From positions 1 to 33,785 of the forward strand of contig JAAYRX010000030.1 in NCBI GenBank assembly GCA_012518535.1: a DNA stretch of 33,785 nt, given 5' to 3'. Both the position numbers and the translations under genes were made by a program. Source of the stretch: Clostridiales bacterium. Its GTDB lineage: Bacteria > Bacillota > Clostridia > Caldicoprobacterales > UBA3941. The notes under the pieces were generated by a model. It ran no database searches and was not told the DNA's origin. It was given only the letters and a program-made list of their open reading frames with translations. Of the stretch, positions 25,873 through 31,164 are shown piece by piece; position 1 is the first letter of the stretch; the number at the start of each line of letters is the position of its first letter.

Positions 25873-26439
25873 TCAACCAAACTTAAATATTACCCCTACA
25901 ACACCCGCGGCAATGAGATATATTATTGGATGTTTCTTATACTTATTGGTAACAAACATCAGTATACCAAAAAGCACTATGGCCTTTAAGTCGAATATGT
26001 CCAGAATCTTCCTTGTATCCAAGTACTCTTGCAGATTGAACAACGAGACCCTGGCTACTTCAAAACCCGCAGCAGCGATTAGGCCGGTAACCGCAGGCCT
26101 TAACCCGTAAAACCCTGCCTTTACCAGGGGTTCCTCGGCAAACCGCATAAAATAATGGGCTATTATTACAATTACTATAACCGATGGAGTAACCAGGCCA
26201 AGAGTGGCTATTACCGCTCCGCCTATACCGGCGGTTTGAAAACCCACATAGGTGGCCATATTGACTCCGATGGGACCGGGGGTTGATTCGGATATAGCAA
26301 TCATATCCACCAGTTCCTGGGATGTTACCCAGCCGTATTTTTGTATCAGTTCCTGGAGAAAGGGTATGGTTGCGAGCCCTCCACCTATGGCAAAAAGCCC
26401 TATCTTGAAGTATTCAAAGTAAAGATATAGATAGATCAT
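25873..26439 (-). CDS. CHR-family (chromate transporter-like) half protein, second gene
   Basis: A 188-aa membrane protein forming one six-helix-like CHR unit. FKIGLFAIGGGLATIPFLQ near the N-terminus and ISESTPGPIGVNMATYVGF are the family's two conserved motifs. Short CHR proteins are typically encoded as adjacent pairs that together equal one full-length ChrA. The start overlaps the stop of the upstream partner by ATGA, indicating coupled translation. Family members are annotated as chromate/sulfate transporters, but paired short forms in anaerobes may transport another anion. No chromate reductase or chrB regulator is nearby. Confidence 0.9.
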   Translation of the reverse strand: MIYLYLYFEYFKIGLFAIGGGLATIPFLQELIQKYGWVTSQELVDMIAISESTPGPIGVNMATYVGFQTAGIGGAVIATLGLVTPSVIVIVIIAHYFMRFAEEPLVKAGFYGLRPAVTGLIAAAGFEVARVSLFNLQEYLDTRKILDIFDLKAIVLFGILMFVTNKYKKHPIIYLIAAGVVGVIFKFG

Positions 26440-26978
26440 TCCTTGACCGCCCCCCTATAGCTCAATAAAATTCCCGTAGCAGCCGACACAAATATTATGA
26501 TGATTGGGGAGATCCGGGTAAAGGCTATGACCAAAAAAGCCAGAATGAATAATATTATCCCAACAAGGTCCTTGACCGATTTCTTCCACATTCTTACCAC
26601 GGCATTCACTACCAGAGCAACTACGGCGACCCTTATACCCGCAAAGGCATGCTGAACTGTCTGATTGTCCTTAAAGTGCATAAAAGAGCTGGCTATTATG
26701 GTAATGATCACCAGAGAAGGTGAAATCATCCCCAAGGTTGCAAAAATGGCCCCTATAAGCCCCTTTTTCTTATATCCAATAAAGGTTGCTGTATTTACAG
26801 CGATAATGCCGGGAGTAGACTGGCCGATGGCATAGTAATCTATTACTTCCTCATCCGAGGCCCATCCTCTTTTCTCTACCACCTCTCTCTGGATAATTGG
26901 AAGCATGGCATACCCGCCTCCAAAGGTAAATGCGCCTATCCGAAAAAAAACGCTGAATAATTCCCAAAGTTCTTTCAC
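26436..26978 (-). CDS. CHR-family (chromate transporter-like) half protein, first gene
   Basis: A 180-aa partner of the downstream CHR protein. It carries FFRIGAFTFGGGYAMLPIIQREVV and the loop IGQSTPGIIAVNTATFIGY, the same two CHR motifs in slightly different form, as expected for an antiparallel two-gene pair. A GTG start at 26978 with AGGAGG about ten bases upstream is used. A promoter with a perfect palindrome across its -10 lies 60 bp upstream, so the pair is probably repressible. The transported anion is not known from sequence. Confidence 0.9.
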   Translation of the reverse strand: MKELWELFSVFFRIGAFTFGGGYAMLPIIQREVVEKRGWASDEEVIDYYAIGQSTPGIIAVNTATFIGYKKKGLIGAIFATLGMISPSLVIITIIASSFMHFKDNQTVQHAFAGIRVAVVALVVNAVVRMWKKSVKDLVGIILFILAFLVIAFTRISPIIIIFVSAATGILLSYRGAVKE

Positions 26979-27110: not shown

Positions 27111-28937
27111 CTATACTTTTAGAATGCTTAATTCCTGTTCCTCCCTAAACTGATTGGTATAGAGCCTGTAATAGTATCCGCCCTGCTTCATCAATTCCCT
27201 GTGATTGCCCTCCTCAATCATTTGGCCATCCTTAATTACCAGTATCCTATCTGCAGATCGTATGGTGGAAAGTCGGTGGGCAATAATAAAGCTGGTTCTG
27301 CCTTCCAATAGCTTGTTGATGGCGTATTGTATCATCTGCTCGGTTTCGGTATCAATAGAGGATGTAGCCTCATCCAGGACCAGAATTCTAGGATCTGCTA
27401 AAATAGCTCTGGCAAAGGAGATAAGCTGTTTTTCACCGGTGGAAAGCATACTGCCTCCCTCGCCCACCTCTGAATCATAACCATCTTCCATCTTCATTAT
27501 AAAATCATGGGCGTTTACTAATTTGGCTGCCTCTATTACCTCTTCATCAGTGGCATCCAGCCTTCCATAGCGAATATTATCTCTTATGGTTCCACTGAAA
27601 AGATGTGGAGACTGGAGCACATAGCCGATGTTGGATTGGAGCCATAGCTGGGACCTCTCCCGATAATCCACGCCATCTATCAGTATCAGGCCCTCTACCG
27701 GTTCATAAAAACGGCAGAGAAGGTTCACTATGGTACTCTTCCCGGAGCCGGTCTCCCCCACCAAGGCAATTGACTCGCCCCTTTTTACGTCCAAACTAAA
27801 GTTTTCCAGGACCTCTTCCCCTTCCTTATAGGAAAAAGATACATCCTTAAAGGTAATATCCCCTTTAATCTCCTCCCAGTTGTCATGCCTGGGTTCAAAC
27901 TCTGTGCCATACTTCTCTATTACCTCAGGTCTATCCACAATATCAGGCTCGGTATTTATCATGGCCATTACCCTTTCGGCAGAGGCCTGTGCATTCTGGA
28001 ATTCGGCAATGATCCTGGCCAACTCATTGATTGGGCCAAAGAACTGAGTTACATAGGAAATAAAGGCAGACAAGGTACCGAATCCTATTGTCTGTAGCAG
28101 AACCCCCCTGCCACCAAACCACAGGGCAAGGGCAGTCCCTATGCTTCCCATGGCAATAACTATGGGAAAGTAGATGGACGAGAAGACTGCCGCTCTTACC
28201 GATGAAGTATGCATTTCACCAGTAAGGGCTTTGAATTCTTTCAGGTTTTCTTCTTCCCGTACCAGCGTCTTGGTGGTCTTTGCTCCCATTATTCCCTCAT
28301 TAAAGGCACCGGTTATCCTGGAATTGGTTCTCCTTACAATGCGGTAGGAACCGAGAATTCTCTTCTGGAAGTAGATACTTATCACACCCAGAAAGGGTAC
28401 CACTGCAAGGGAGATTAATGCCAATTTCCAATTCATATAGAGCATGGCTATCAATCCGCCCACCATGGCAGTACCACCCCAGGTCAGGTCCACCAAACTC
28501 CAGGCTATGGTTGCCCCCAAACGCTCCACATCGGAAGTCATACGAGCCATCAGCCAGCCTACCGATGTTTTATCATAGTATGAAAAGGACAACTCCTGCA
28601 GTCTTTTAAATCCGGCCTTCCTGATATCGTAACTTAGGCTCATTTCTATGCGTCCTGCAAAATAGATAAAGAAGTAAACGTTAATGGCCTGGAGGGCTAC
28701 CAATCCCGCATAAATTCCGGCAAATACCCATAGCTTATCAAGTCTTCCCGTGACAATGAAGTTATCTATAGCGTATCTGTTCATCAGGGGAAATATGACA
28801 TCGATACCTCCGGATCCCATCATTACTACTATAAGAGCTATAATTCTATTTCTATAAGGCTTTATATACTTAAACAAATCCTTCCACAATCCAAAATCAA
28901 TGGATTTGCTGTATTCCTGCTCCTTCAATGCGCTCAA
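27111..28937 (-). CDS. Heterodimeric ABC exporter subunit with canonical ATP site (BmrD/YheH-like)
   Basis: A 608-aa half transporter with a six-helix type IV exporter membrane domain (about residues 25-330) then an ATPase domain. Walker A is GETGSGKST, the signature is LSTGEKQ instead of LSGGQ, Walker B is RILVLDEATSSID with catalytic Glu, and the H-loop is IAHRLSTI. The altered signature here, with the Asp-type Walker B in the partner gene, is the pattern of asymmetric heterodimeric multidrug exporters (BmrCD, LmrCD, TM287/288). It begins with TTG, supported by GGGAGGG seven bases upstream, and follows its partner by 75 bp. Likely substrates are drugs or amphipathic compounds, by family only. 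Confidence 0.92.
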   Translation of the reverse strand: MSALKEQEYSKSIDFGLWKDLFKYIKPYRNRIIALIVVMMGSGGIDVIFPLMNRYAIDNFIVTGRLDKLWVFAGIYAGLVALQAINVYFFIYFAGRIEMSLSYDIRKAGFKRLQELSFSYYDKTSVGWLMARMTSDVERLGATIAWSLVDLTWGGTAMVGGLIAMLYMNWKLALISLAVVPFLGVISIYFQKRILGSYRIVRRTNSRITGAFNEGIMGAKTTKTLVREEENLKEFKALTGEMHTSSVRAAVFSSIYFPIVIAMGSIGTALALWFGGRGVLLQTIGFGTLSAFISYVTQFFGPINELARIIAEFQNAQASAERVMAMINTEPDIVDRPEVIEKYGTEFEPRHDNWEEIKGDITFKDVSFSYKEGEEVLENFSLDVKRGESIALVGETGSGKSTIVNLLCRFYEPVEGLILIDGVDYRERSQLWLQSNIGYVLQSPHLFSGTIRDNIRYGRLDATDEEVIEAAKLVNAHDFIMKMEDGYDSEVGEGGSMLSTGEKQLISFARAILADPRILVLDEATSSIDTETEQMIQYAINKLLEGRTSFIIAHRLSTIRSADRILVIKDGQMIEEGNHRELMKQGGYYYRLYTNQFREEQELSILKV

Positions 28938-29012: not shown

Positions 29013-30827
29013 TTAGCTTAATGCCAGGTTCTTTTCCAATTCTTCCTCCAGGGCATTTTGTATGGACCAAATGCGACGGTACATCCCCTCCTGGGATAAT
29101 AGTTCTTCATGAGTTCCCGATTGTACTATTCGTCCGTCCTCCATAACCAGTATGATATCTGCTTGGGAGATAGTTGTGATCCTGTGGGAGATAATAAATG
29201 TTGTCACACCCTTGCTGTGTTCACTGAGGGCCTGTCTTATAGCATTATCGGTTTCGGTGTCCACAGCGCTTAACGAATCATCGAAGATCAGGATAGAACT
29301 ATCCAAAATCAAGGTTCTGGCCATGGCCACCCTCTGCTTTTGACCGCCGGATAGGGTTACTCCCCTTTCACCTACCGTAGTATCGTAGCCTCGCTCAAAC
29401 TCCTTTATTACGTCATGGACAGCCGCTATGCTTGCAGCTTTGTATATCTCCTTATCTGATGCATCCAGCTTGGCCAAAGCAATGTTCTCCTTTATGGTCT
29501 TGGAGAAGAGGAAGGGTTCCTGGAGGACGATTCCCACCTGTCTTCTTAAATATCGCTTATCTATATCCCTTAACTCTACCCCACCAATGGTCACAGAGCC
29601 TTTATTGTAGTCATATAGCCCCTGAAGCAGGTGGACCAGAGAAGATTTACCGGAACCGGTGGAACCAAGTATAGCTACGGTCTGGCCACCCTTTACCTTA
29701 AATGAAACATCCTTCAGAACAGGCTTGCCCTGCTCGTATTCGAAGTATACATTCCTGAATTCTATATCCCCGTCCATAGGAGGGGTTAATCCATCCTCAT
29801 TCATATCCTCAAGGGGTTTTTCCAAGATTTCCTTGATCCTACCCAGTGACACCTGAGTCCTACCCATATCCGAAAGGATCCTGCCCAGTTGACGTACCGG
29901 CCAAAGTAGCATCCACTCATAACTCATAAAGGCCATAAGGGTACCCAGGGTAATTTCGCCCAGTGCAGCCCAGTATACTCCCAACACCAATACCGCCCCT
30001 ATCTGTCCCATGGCCAGCAAATCGGAGGAGGACCAATACAAGGCCATTATCGTGTTTAACCGGTACCAAAGATTTGTATACTCGGTGTTCTTTTCATCAA
30101 ACTTCCTGGCTTCATAGGCTTGCCTTCCGAAGGCTCTAACCACCCTTATACCGGTCAGATTTTCCTGCAGAACGGTTGATAACCTGCCCTCCGCCTCATC
30201 GGCCTCCTTAAAGGCCTTCTTTATTTTACTGAAGAAAATAAAGGAGAAAAGGAATATAATAGGTATCACAGCTATAGATACAAAGGTCATCTTCACACTT
30301 AGGGAGAGCATAAAGTACAAAGAAGCTGCCAAGAGCACTATAGCCCTTCCCATCTCTACCAACTGCATAGCCAGGAATCTACGTGTCGTTTCTACGTCTG
30401 AAGTACAACGCTGAATCAGATCTCCCGTTTCAGCCTTTACATGTTCGTCATAGGGAAGACGCTGAAGATGATCATATAGGTTATTCCTGATATTCCTCGC
30501 GATACCTTCTGCCGCTTGGGCTGACCATTTTCCCCTGGTGAAATTGAAAAGTCCGATAAAGATATTCAATATAACCAGAGCCAGCCCACAGATCCACAGG
30601 TTCTGTGCCAGAACACTTTTTCCCCCTAATCTATGTATCATTGACACAACTATCGGCGAAGCTGTAAACGGCTCATCGCCTATTATCGAGTCAACCGTGA
30701 TGCTTATTACTAAGGGGGGCAACAGGGACAATACCGCCGTCAGGGCCATGCTGATGATTGCCCCTACATAGAGCATACGGTTACCCTTCGAAACTTTCCA
30801 TAGATAACCCCAATTCTTATCCTCCAT
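29013..30827 (-). CDS. Heterodimeric ABC exporter subunit with degenerate ATP site (BmrC/YheI-like)
   Basis: A 604-aa half transporter with an N-terminal six-helix membrane domain and a C-terminal ATPase domain. Walker A is GSTGSGKSS, the signature is the canonical VTLSGGQKQR, and the H-loop is ISHRITTI. Walker B reads ILIFDDSLSAVD: the catalytic Glu is replaced by Asp, which marks the degenerate site of a heterodimer. Its partner follows on the same strand. AAGGAGTG precedes the ATG. The region upstream holds a 39-codon ORF and a terminator with a competing antiterminator, so expression is probably controlled by transcription attenuation. Confidence 0.93.
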   Translation of the reverse strand: MEDKNWGYLWKVSKGNRMLYVGAIISMALTAVLSLLPPLVISITVDSIIGDEPFTASPIVVSMIHRLGGKSVLAQNLWICGLALVILNIFIGLFNFTRGKWSAQAAEGIARNIRNNLYDHLQRLPYDEHVKAETGDLIQRCTSDVETTRRFLAMQLVEMGRAIVLLAASLYFMLSLSVKMTFVSIAVIPIIFLFSFIFFSKIKKAFKEADEAEGRLSTVLQENLTGIRVVRAFGRQAYEARKFDEKNTEYTNLWYRLNTIMALYWSSSDLLAMGQIGAVLVLGVYWAALGEITLGTLMAFMSYEWMLLWPVRQLGRILSDMGRTQVSLGRIKEILEKPLEDMNEDGLTPPMDGDIEFRNVYFEYEQGKPVLKDVSFKVKGGQTVAILGSTGSGKSSLVHLLQGLYDYNKGSVTIGGVELRDIDKRYLRRQVGIVLQEPFLFSKTIKENIALAKLDASDKEIYKAASIAAVHDVIKEFERGYDTTVGERGVTLSGGQKQRVAMARTLILDSSILIFDDSLSAVDTETDNAIRQALSEHSKGVTTFIISHRITTISQADIILVMEDGRIVQSGTHEELLSQEGMYRRIWSIQNALEEELEKNLALS

Positions 30828-30862
30828 GGTTTCACTCCTTTTTCACCCAAGAATCCAACCAT

Positions 30863-30891
30863 AAAAAACCGCAGACCTGAAGCCCGCGGTT
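30863..30891 (-). terminator. Terminator in the leader of the ABC exporter (attenuator 3:4 hairpin)
   Basis: On the minus strand AACCGCGGGC (30882-30891) pairs with GTCTGCGGTT (30867-30876), ten base pairs including two G-U, around the loop TTCAG. A run of six T follows. It ends about 25 nt before the exporter's ribosome binding site. It is preceded by the leader ORF, so it sits between promoter and structural genes. Confidence 0.85.
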
Positions 30892-31011
30892 ACCTATAAA
30901 TCTATGCAAATAAAAACCACAGGCATATTATATTACCCATGGCCCATCTATTAAACAAAACTATCAAAAGGACAGTTTTTCCCCAATTTCGAGAGGTACA
31001 GGCAGGCCATG
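30867..31011 (-). promoter_or_regulatory. Candidate translation-dependent transcription attenuator
   Basis: Five RNA segments (minus strand) can pair in mutually exclusive ways. Segment 0 CATGGCC (31005-31011) lies inside the leader ORF at codons 25-27. Segment 1 GGCCATGGG is at 30936-30944, segment 2 GCCTGTGGTT at 30915-30924, segment 3 AACCGCGGGC at 30882-30891, and segment 4 GTCTGCGGTT at 30867-30876. Pairing 0:1 is seven Watson-Crick pairs, 1:2 is about eight with three G-U, 2:3 is ten with two G-U (antiterminator) and 3:4 is ten (terminator). If a ribosome covers segment 0, 1:2 and then 3:4 form and transcription stops. If ribosomes stall earlier, 0:1 and 2:3 form and the exporter is transcribed. 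The logic is inferred from pairing alone. Confidence 0.65.
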
Positions 31012-31083
31012 ATCATCCAATACTATACTGTTGATAAAAAATCCGTAGACATTGTTCACGCTCTTACTTTTCTTTACAGTCAT
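30964..31083 (-). CDS. 39-aa leader peptide or small protein upstream of the ABC exporter
   Basis: A 39-codon ORF starting MTVKKSKSVNNVYGFFINSI and ending LPVPLEIGEKLSF, with a TGA immediately followed by TAG. GGAAGGGGGGG lies eight bases before the ATG at 31083, an excellent ribosome binding site, and a near-consensus promoter is about 50 bp upstream. A longer in-frame reading to 31164 would run through the promoter and is not used. I do not recognise the sequence. The N-terminus is basic and there is no membrane segment. Its place before a terminator and a heterodimeric exporter parallels BmrB, the leader peptide ahead of bmrCD in Bacillus subtilis, which controls that exporter by ribosome-mediated attenuation. 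A free-standing small protein is also possible. Confidence 0.75.
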   Translation of the reverse strand: MTVKKSKSVNNVYGFFINSIVLDDHGLPVPLEIGEKLSF

Positions 31084-31135
31084 GTTCTGCCCCCCCTTCC
31101 TTGGTAGAAATCGTATGGTTTTAAGCACAATAACA

Positions 31136-31164
31136 ATTATATACATTATAATAAAAAAATGCAA
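31136..31164 (-). promoter_or_regulatory. Sigma-A promoter of the leader ORF and exporter
   Basis: On the minus strand TTGCAT (31159-31164) and TATAAT (31136-31141) are exactly 17 bp apart. Transcription would start near 31129, leaving a leader of about 45 nt before the small ORF and about 300 nt before the exporter gene. Confidence 0.8.

Follow-up and report, generated by a model that had tools for sequence, protein, structure and literature searches.

A predicted ribosome-mediated attenuator with two terminators in the leader of a heterodimeric ABC exporter

The exporter locus and its leader

The window, i.e., the whole stretch of 33,785 nucleotides analyzed here, comes from a 2.1-Mb draft genome in 246 contigs. 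Two genes on its minus strand encode half-size ABC exporters: subunit 1 (29013-30827, 604 aa) has a degenerate catalytic site (Walker B FDDSLSAVD), and subunit 2 (27111-28937, 608 aa, TTG start as listed) has a canonical Walker B (LDEATSSID) and a degenerate signature (LSTGEKQ). Two half-transporters with one degenerate site, as in BmrCD, TmrAB and TM287/288, support the original prediction, which had named a heterodimeric ABC exporter as the regulated target. The closest solved bacterial heterodimers are BmrCD, TM287/288 and TmrAB; a TmrAB chain is the best match of subunit 2 (bit scores: 6raf_A 395, TM_0288 384, YheH 331), and subunit 1 scores 318 against TM_0288 and 308 against YheI. Judged from these scores, the exporter is no nearer to BmrCD than to TmrAB or TM287/288 and does not look like a BmrCD orthologue. 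The 5' neighbours of the locus are genes for a LacI-family regulator and a glycoside hydrolase, and 3' of the exporter (25873-26978) lie two adjoining single-domain chromate-transporter genes.

The leader of the exporter, likewise on the minus strand, was read directly from a promoter at 31136-31164 (TTGCAT 31164-31159, a 17-nt spacer, and TATAAT 31141-31136). Its -35 agrees with the consensus at three of six positions and it is absent from the list of a consensus scan, yet an equivalent promoter stands at the same place in relatives (22 of 25 related leaders at >=9/12, i.e., at least nine of twelve, seven of them being a perfect TTGACA-17-TATAAT). The leader ORF (30964-31083, MTVKKSKSVNNVYGFFINSIVLDDHGLPVPLEIGEKLSF) has 39 codons plus TGA and a strong Shine-Dalgarno (SD) sequence (GGAAGGGGGG), which together with the start codon region forms segment -1 (31081-31105), a partner of segment 0 as identified by duplex energy. 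Segment 0, delimited by duplex tests, lies within the ORF (30982-31023): its core CATGGCC (31011-31005) pairs with GGCCATG (30944-30938) in helix 0:1, for which the extended site is 31023-31005, and the part that pairs with segment -1 covers 31012-30982.

Segment 1 (30944-30934) can also pair with segment 2 (30925-30915), and because a T tract follows this helix 1:2, it constitutes a second intrinsic terminator, T1 (30914-30945; -12.2 kcal/mol). Segment 3 (30882-30891, AACCGCGGGC) is the partner either of segment 2 (GCCTGTGGTT) in the antiterminator 2:3, a hairpin of -16.9 kcal/mol, or of segment 4 (GTCTGCGGTT) in helix 3:4, which engages the identical ten bases and, with a T tract to 30863, forms terminator T2 (30863-30891; -15.4 kcal/mol). 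An independent scan of the region found two terminators where 0.4 were expected, and these were 3:4 (30891-30867) and 1:2 (30945-30914). About 23 nt separate T2 from the exporter ribosome binding site AAGGAG (30835-30840), which precedes the exporter ATG at 30827. The leader sequence folds better than its dinucleotide shuffles (z -2.64; 1 of 200 equally good). The full chain comprises six segments and the helices -1:0, 0:1, 1:2 (T1), 2:3 and 3:4 (T2), of which neighbours are mutually exclusive. The promoter, the 39-codon leader with its SD, the helices and the last terminator were thus all where the original prediction had placed them, as were the ten bases shared by 2:3 and 3:4 (30891-30882); helix 1:2, which it had regarded as a competitor, does compete but is itself a terminator.

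Recurrence and pairing in related loci

We located subunit 1 orthologues in 30 genomes of the order, which also contains Caldicoprobacter, and in 391 genomes of the class, and examined the DNA upstream of them. In the window's family and in a second family of the order, T1, often accompanied by T2, comes after a short ORF that has a strong SD; the same arrangement of leader ORF, T1 and in part T2 occurs in several other Clostridia families and in Tissierella simiarum, and some families possess T1 alone, without T2. The related upstream ORFs (uORFs) have 21-43 codons, and their peptides are divergent between families apart from a short motif with Pro close to the C terminus (R-P, P-P-V, L-P-M-P). 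A peptide search across the order gave a single clear match, a leader peptide 72% identical in one genome of the same genus; the remaining matches were weak, although L044, among these, is the leader of an exporter in the same family, at the same place as L060. Searches of Pfam, NCBIfam and Rfam returned no credible match for the leader. In each of two genomes, the match to subunit 1 contains one stop codon (TAA in G025:C6:2027-3838, TAG in G023:C98:11127-12932), possibly just the gene's own stop within the aligned stretch.

The original prediction had drawn attention to relatives that keep the exporter and lose the pairing. In four Caldicoprobacter-type loci (L063-L066) the exporter is kept, directly behind another gene, and the leader and terminators are absent, so that the whole element was lost and not merely its pairing broken; in two distant loci (L103, L106) a leader and a terminator are present and 0:1 is no better than in shuffled sequences. 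Among other distant loci, L076 fits in both pairings (0:1 and -1:0), but its hairpin is without a clear T tract, the fit of L088 and L104 is weak, and L093 is without -1:0. The gene that precedes the exporter in L063-L066 encodes a product with ferredoxin-like Cys motifs. Family f3 of the order (L067-L070 and L074) has tandem terminators of the GCCATGGG/GCCATAGG kind, with no clear leader ORF ending just 5' of the first of them.

For the pairing tests, 26 loci in which the SD was strong and the leader-T1 pair clear were hand-picked, and each test used 16-21 representatives of this set or of the loci with T1 and T2. In the 0:1 test, in which the ORF was paired with the 5' arm and loop of T1, the mean duplex energy (a measure that leaves aside loop costs and tertiary effects) was -15.7 kcal/mol for own partners vs. 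-12.2 kcal/mol for partners swapped between loci (sd 0.59; 0 of 20000 permutations) and -10.3 kcal/mol for codon-shuffled ORFs (0 of 1000 as good). Because loci within one family are not independent, the safest figures are those from one locus per family: with eight families and all 40320 permutations, the own value of 0:1 was matched or exceeded in five. The mean of 2:3 was -14.7 kcal/mol with own and -12.5 kcal/mol with swapped partners (0 of 20000). Within the window's family, 0:1 also shows a compensatory double change (TTACCCATG/CATGGGTAA in L057, TTACCTATG/CATAGGTAA in L060), relative to which the window's CATGGCC/GGCCATG is in a shifted register. The comparison with relatives that the original prediction had proposed thus points to complementarity specific to each locus, with a compensatory change in 0:1.

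A further pairing, which the original prediction had missed, joins segment 0 to the SD region of the leader itself (31105-31081). In the window, -1:0 (ACCAAGGAAGGGGGGGCAGAACATG with TCATGGCCTGCCTGTACCTCTCGAAATTGGG) reaches -24.4 kcal/mol, compared to -16.9 +/- 3.2 kcal/mol for codon-shuffled ORFs, 1.7% of which are as good. Over 21 loci the mean was -19.2 kcal/mol vs. -11.7 kcal/mol for codon-shuffled ORFs (0 of 500) and -14.5 kcal/mol for swapped loci (0 of 20000), and in the test restricted to one locus for each family an equal or better value came up in 4 of 40320 permutations. In all 21 loci the -1:0 site overlaps the 0:1 site. Taken together, the swap tests indicate that the complementarity of -1:0, 0:1 and 2:3 is specific to each locus.

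Ribosome position and the proposed switch

Transcripts were folded with a 32-nt ribosome footprint placed at successive codons. For the window transcript ending after T1, 0:1 formed with a probability of about 0.63 when codon 1 was in the P site, 0.61 for codon 3 and 0.44 for codon 5; the value was 0.00 for the later codons sampled and in the absence of a ribosome, and T1 changed in the opposite direction. When transcripts ended before segment 2, a ribosome at codons 1-3 allowed 0:1 in nearly all loci, and in most loci the helix disappeared without a ribosome or once the ribosome was off the SD. With the ribosome at codon 2, the mean gain in 0:1 pairs was 8.15, vs. 0.75 +/- 0.67 (maximum 1.82) in codon-shuffled leaders; the gain was partial in some loci and absent in two (L078, L096). 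At the first codons the window result was stable to the size of the footprint, and it required a 5' UTR no shorter than about 45 nt, which agrees with the position of the leader promoter; with 30 nt instead of 45-60 nt, the state without a ribosome was no longer clearly OFF. In the pre-T1 model of the window, 0:1 was likewise permitted with the P site near codons 14-16 or 33. In most loci, then, a ribosome held at the start of the uORF is predicted to give the ON state.

From these folds and the pairing tests, we consider it probable that the window leader is a ribosome-mediated transcription attenuator that reads arrest at initiation or in early elongation and opens first T1 and then T2. It has a promoter, a leader ORF with an SD, two intrinsic terminators between leader and gene, and mutually exclusive helices among which the choice depends, in the computation, on where the ribosome stands. 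By default, with no ribosome or with a ribosome that has moved on, the leader SD region would capture segment 0, or the ribosome would cover it; segment 1 would stay free, T1 would fold and RNA polymerase would stop, with T2 as a back-up. In the induced state, a ribosome on about the first five codons, held there, e.g., by a drug that inhibits initiation or formation of the first peptide bonds, would hide the SD and leave segment 0 exposed; 0:1 would form, T1 would be prevented and segment 2 would be freed to pair with the emerging segment 3 before segment 4 is made, so that T2 would be delayed or prevented and the exporter transcribed.

Attenuation through a translated leader with 0:1 and 2:3 as the ON state, the core of the original prediction, is supported by this computational evidence. 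Its proposal that a ribosome stalled early in the leader frees segment 0 holds insofar as the early codons matter, but early stalling is insufficient: because the leader SD otherwise captures segment 0, the switch calls for a ribosome positioned within about codons 1-6, where it covers the SD, and in the model a leader without a ribosome is predicted to be OFF. Equilibrium folding was considered as support for 2:3 and rejected, T2 being favored (in the window, with 0:1 formed, T2 has a probability of 0.95 and 2:3 of 0.00). Because T2 still wins at equilibrium, its read-through must be kinetic, and it is from the model that we infer this read-through, termination and induction in vivo, and antibiotics as the signal.

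Two other readings were rejected. A ribosome at the stop codon that masks segment 0 fits many families, in which 2-17 nt separate the end of segment 0 from the stop; it does not fit the window's own family, in which this distance is 32-38 nt. A specific stall codon at the leader start does not agree with the variability of the second and third codons.

A plain attenuator of the bmrB/ermK type, in which a drug stall anywhere early in the leader would free segment 0 and the complementarity to the SD would have no role of its own, would be backed by the swap tests of 0:1 and 2:3, and the few loci that form 0:1 even without a ribosome (L078 and L096) are in line with it. We nevertheless consider it unlikely, because -1:0 exceeds both its codon-shuffled and its swapped controls and its site falls on segment 0 in every one of the 21 loci, and because most loci lose 0:1 after the ribosome departs from the SD.

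Less probable still is an arrest peptide, in which the conserved residues near the end (R-P, P-P, L-P-M-P) would, jointly with a drug or metabolite, stall the ribosome, making the nascent chain the sensor. It is true that Pro is nearly always present and that Arg-Pro is common although the Arg codon may be CGA, CGG, AGA or AGG. However, the remainder of the peptide is unrelated between families, and a ribosome parked at the motif would hide segment 0 and so favor T1. Moreover, the codons of the motif are partners of the SD (across loci, e.g., AGGTCGTG with CACGACCT, the former comprising the codons of the common Arg-Pro) as well as of T1, and this pairing can explain the conservation of these residues. 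The leader of L078 (MINLGKFLHNITQLHSKYTCTACALKN) has the conserved nucleotides CACGGCCTGTG in a different frame, so that they encode Thr-Ala-Cys-Ala in place of Arg-Pro; this may be a frameshift of the assembly, or else it suggests that the peptide is unimportant.

Least probable of all, T1 and T2 might be ordinary terminators around a non-functional small ORF, with the exporter transcribed from another promoter such as the promoter-like TTAATA-16-TATAAT inside T1 (30954-30927), but this sequence is within chance expectation and has its -10 in the variable T1 loop, whereas the leader promoter recurs in relatives and the complementarity of the segments is locus-specific.

Known attenuators and wider occurrence

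The original prediction had likened the leader to that of Bacillus subtilis bmrCD, and as an analogue bmrB stands: both systems have a leader ORF, an intrinsic terminator, competing helices and a heterodimeric ABC exporter as the target. It is not a demonstrated homologue: the leader matched no Pfam, NCBIfam or Rfam family, and the exporter is not especially close to BmrCD. In bmrB, the terminator, antiterminator and anti-antiterminator all lie within nt 60-162 of the 53-codon ORF (Reilman 2014, PMC4191407), whereas both terminators of the window are 3' of the leader stop codon (30966-30964); one terminator is reported for bmrB-bmrCD, with a promoter repressed by AbrB and no SD segment described (PMC4191407), whereas the SD of the window is a segment of the switch. 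Without translation of bmrB, bmrCD is no longer induced (PMC4191407), and the predicted OFF state of the window leader when it is untranslated agrees with this; dependence on leader translation is a property of bmrB-bmrCD and a prediction for the window leader.

In its predicted signal, a ribosome arrested at uORF initiation, the window leader resembles B. subtilis vmlR, which lincomycin and retapamulin induce via initiation arrest on a three-codon uORF, several sequence variants of which are functional, with antitermination following the arrest (PMC9226507). The vmlR uORF is inside the anti-antiterminator hairpin, there is one terminator, an extra hairpin hides the vmlR SD, and the target is an ABCF protein (PMC9226507); uORFs of the window type differ in their 21-43 codons and in a 3' end complementary to their own SD. 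Bacillus ermK, as cited from Kwak 1991 in PMC4335068 and PMC5418344, has two adjacent Rho-independent terminators and transcription attenuation, with macrolide-type drugs as inducers and a 23S rRNA methylase as the target; according to these accounts, the window leader is like it in the tandem terminators and unlike it in the target. The efflux operon mef(E)/mel also needs a leader peptide for antitermination, but it has one terminator, compared to two in the window leader, and its ribosome stalls within the leader under macrolides; the element in question is on mobile DNA (PMC4335068). By analogy, then, the window leader would resemble bmrB-bmrCD in target, vmlR in predicted sensing and ermK in its pair of terminators. 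The general kind of switch is known, and the wiring, with two terminators and the leader's own SD as a switch part, appears to be undescribed: targeted searches of the open-access literature (most subscription papers being outside their scope) found no description of it.

If the proposed attenuator is real, it would be a drug-pump switch that senses arrest at initiation or in early elongation without a drug-specific arrest peptide. It would also bear on two open points of bmrB, namely why leader translation is needed and what the job of the anti-antiterminator might be (PMC4191407). The complementarity of leader SD, leader 3' part and terminator arm might serve as a rule for finding antibiotic-responsive leaders with unrelated peptides, and it carries the warning that conserved residues of a leader peptide can stem from RNA pairing.

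The chances seem to us evenly balanced that the leader represents a widespread attenuator class of Clostridia, a general detector of ribosomes arrested at the start codon, in which the leader SD would stand at the head of a domino of five helices by which two terminators are opened successively, and the conserved C-terminal leader residues would be a by-product of RNA pairing and not an arrest motif, and which would stand mainly before the exporter but also before other genes. We searched the 391 class genomes for the pattern GGAGGTCGTG-N40-70-CACGRCCT, with the reversed pattern as a control, and found it in nine genomes (the control in two); a pattern that also included T1 gave two matches and was too strict. 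Six of the nine matches were known exporter loci, L119 was a further exporter locus with T1, and L125 was chance-like. The last, L122 (region of G232:C5:153781-153923), has the SD/segment 0 pair and T1- and T2-like hairpins before two small proteins (MSVISFAINISS... and MSAINFSLKFSS...), and since these are not exporter genes, the attenuator would be mainly, not solely, an exporter leader; the leader peptide of L122 ends in ISARPMTKNI.
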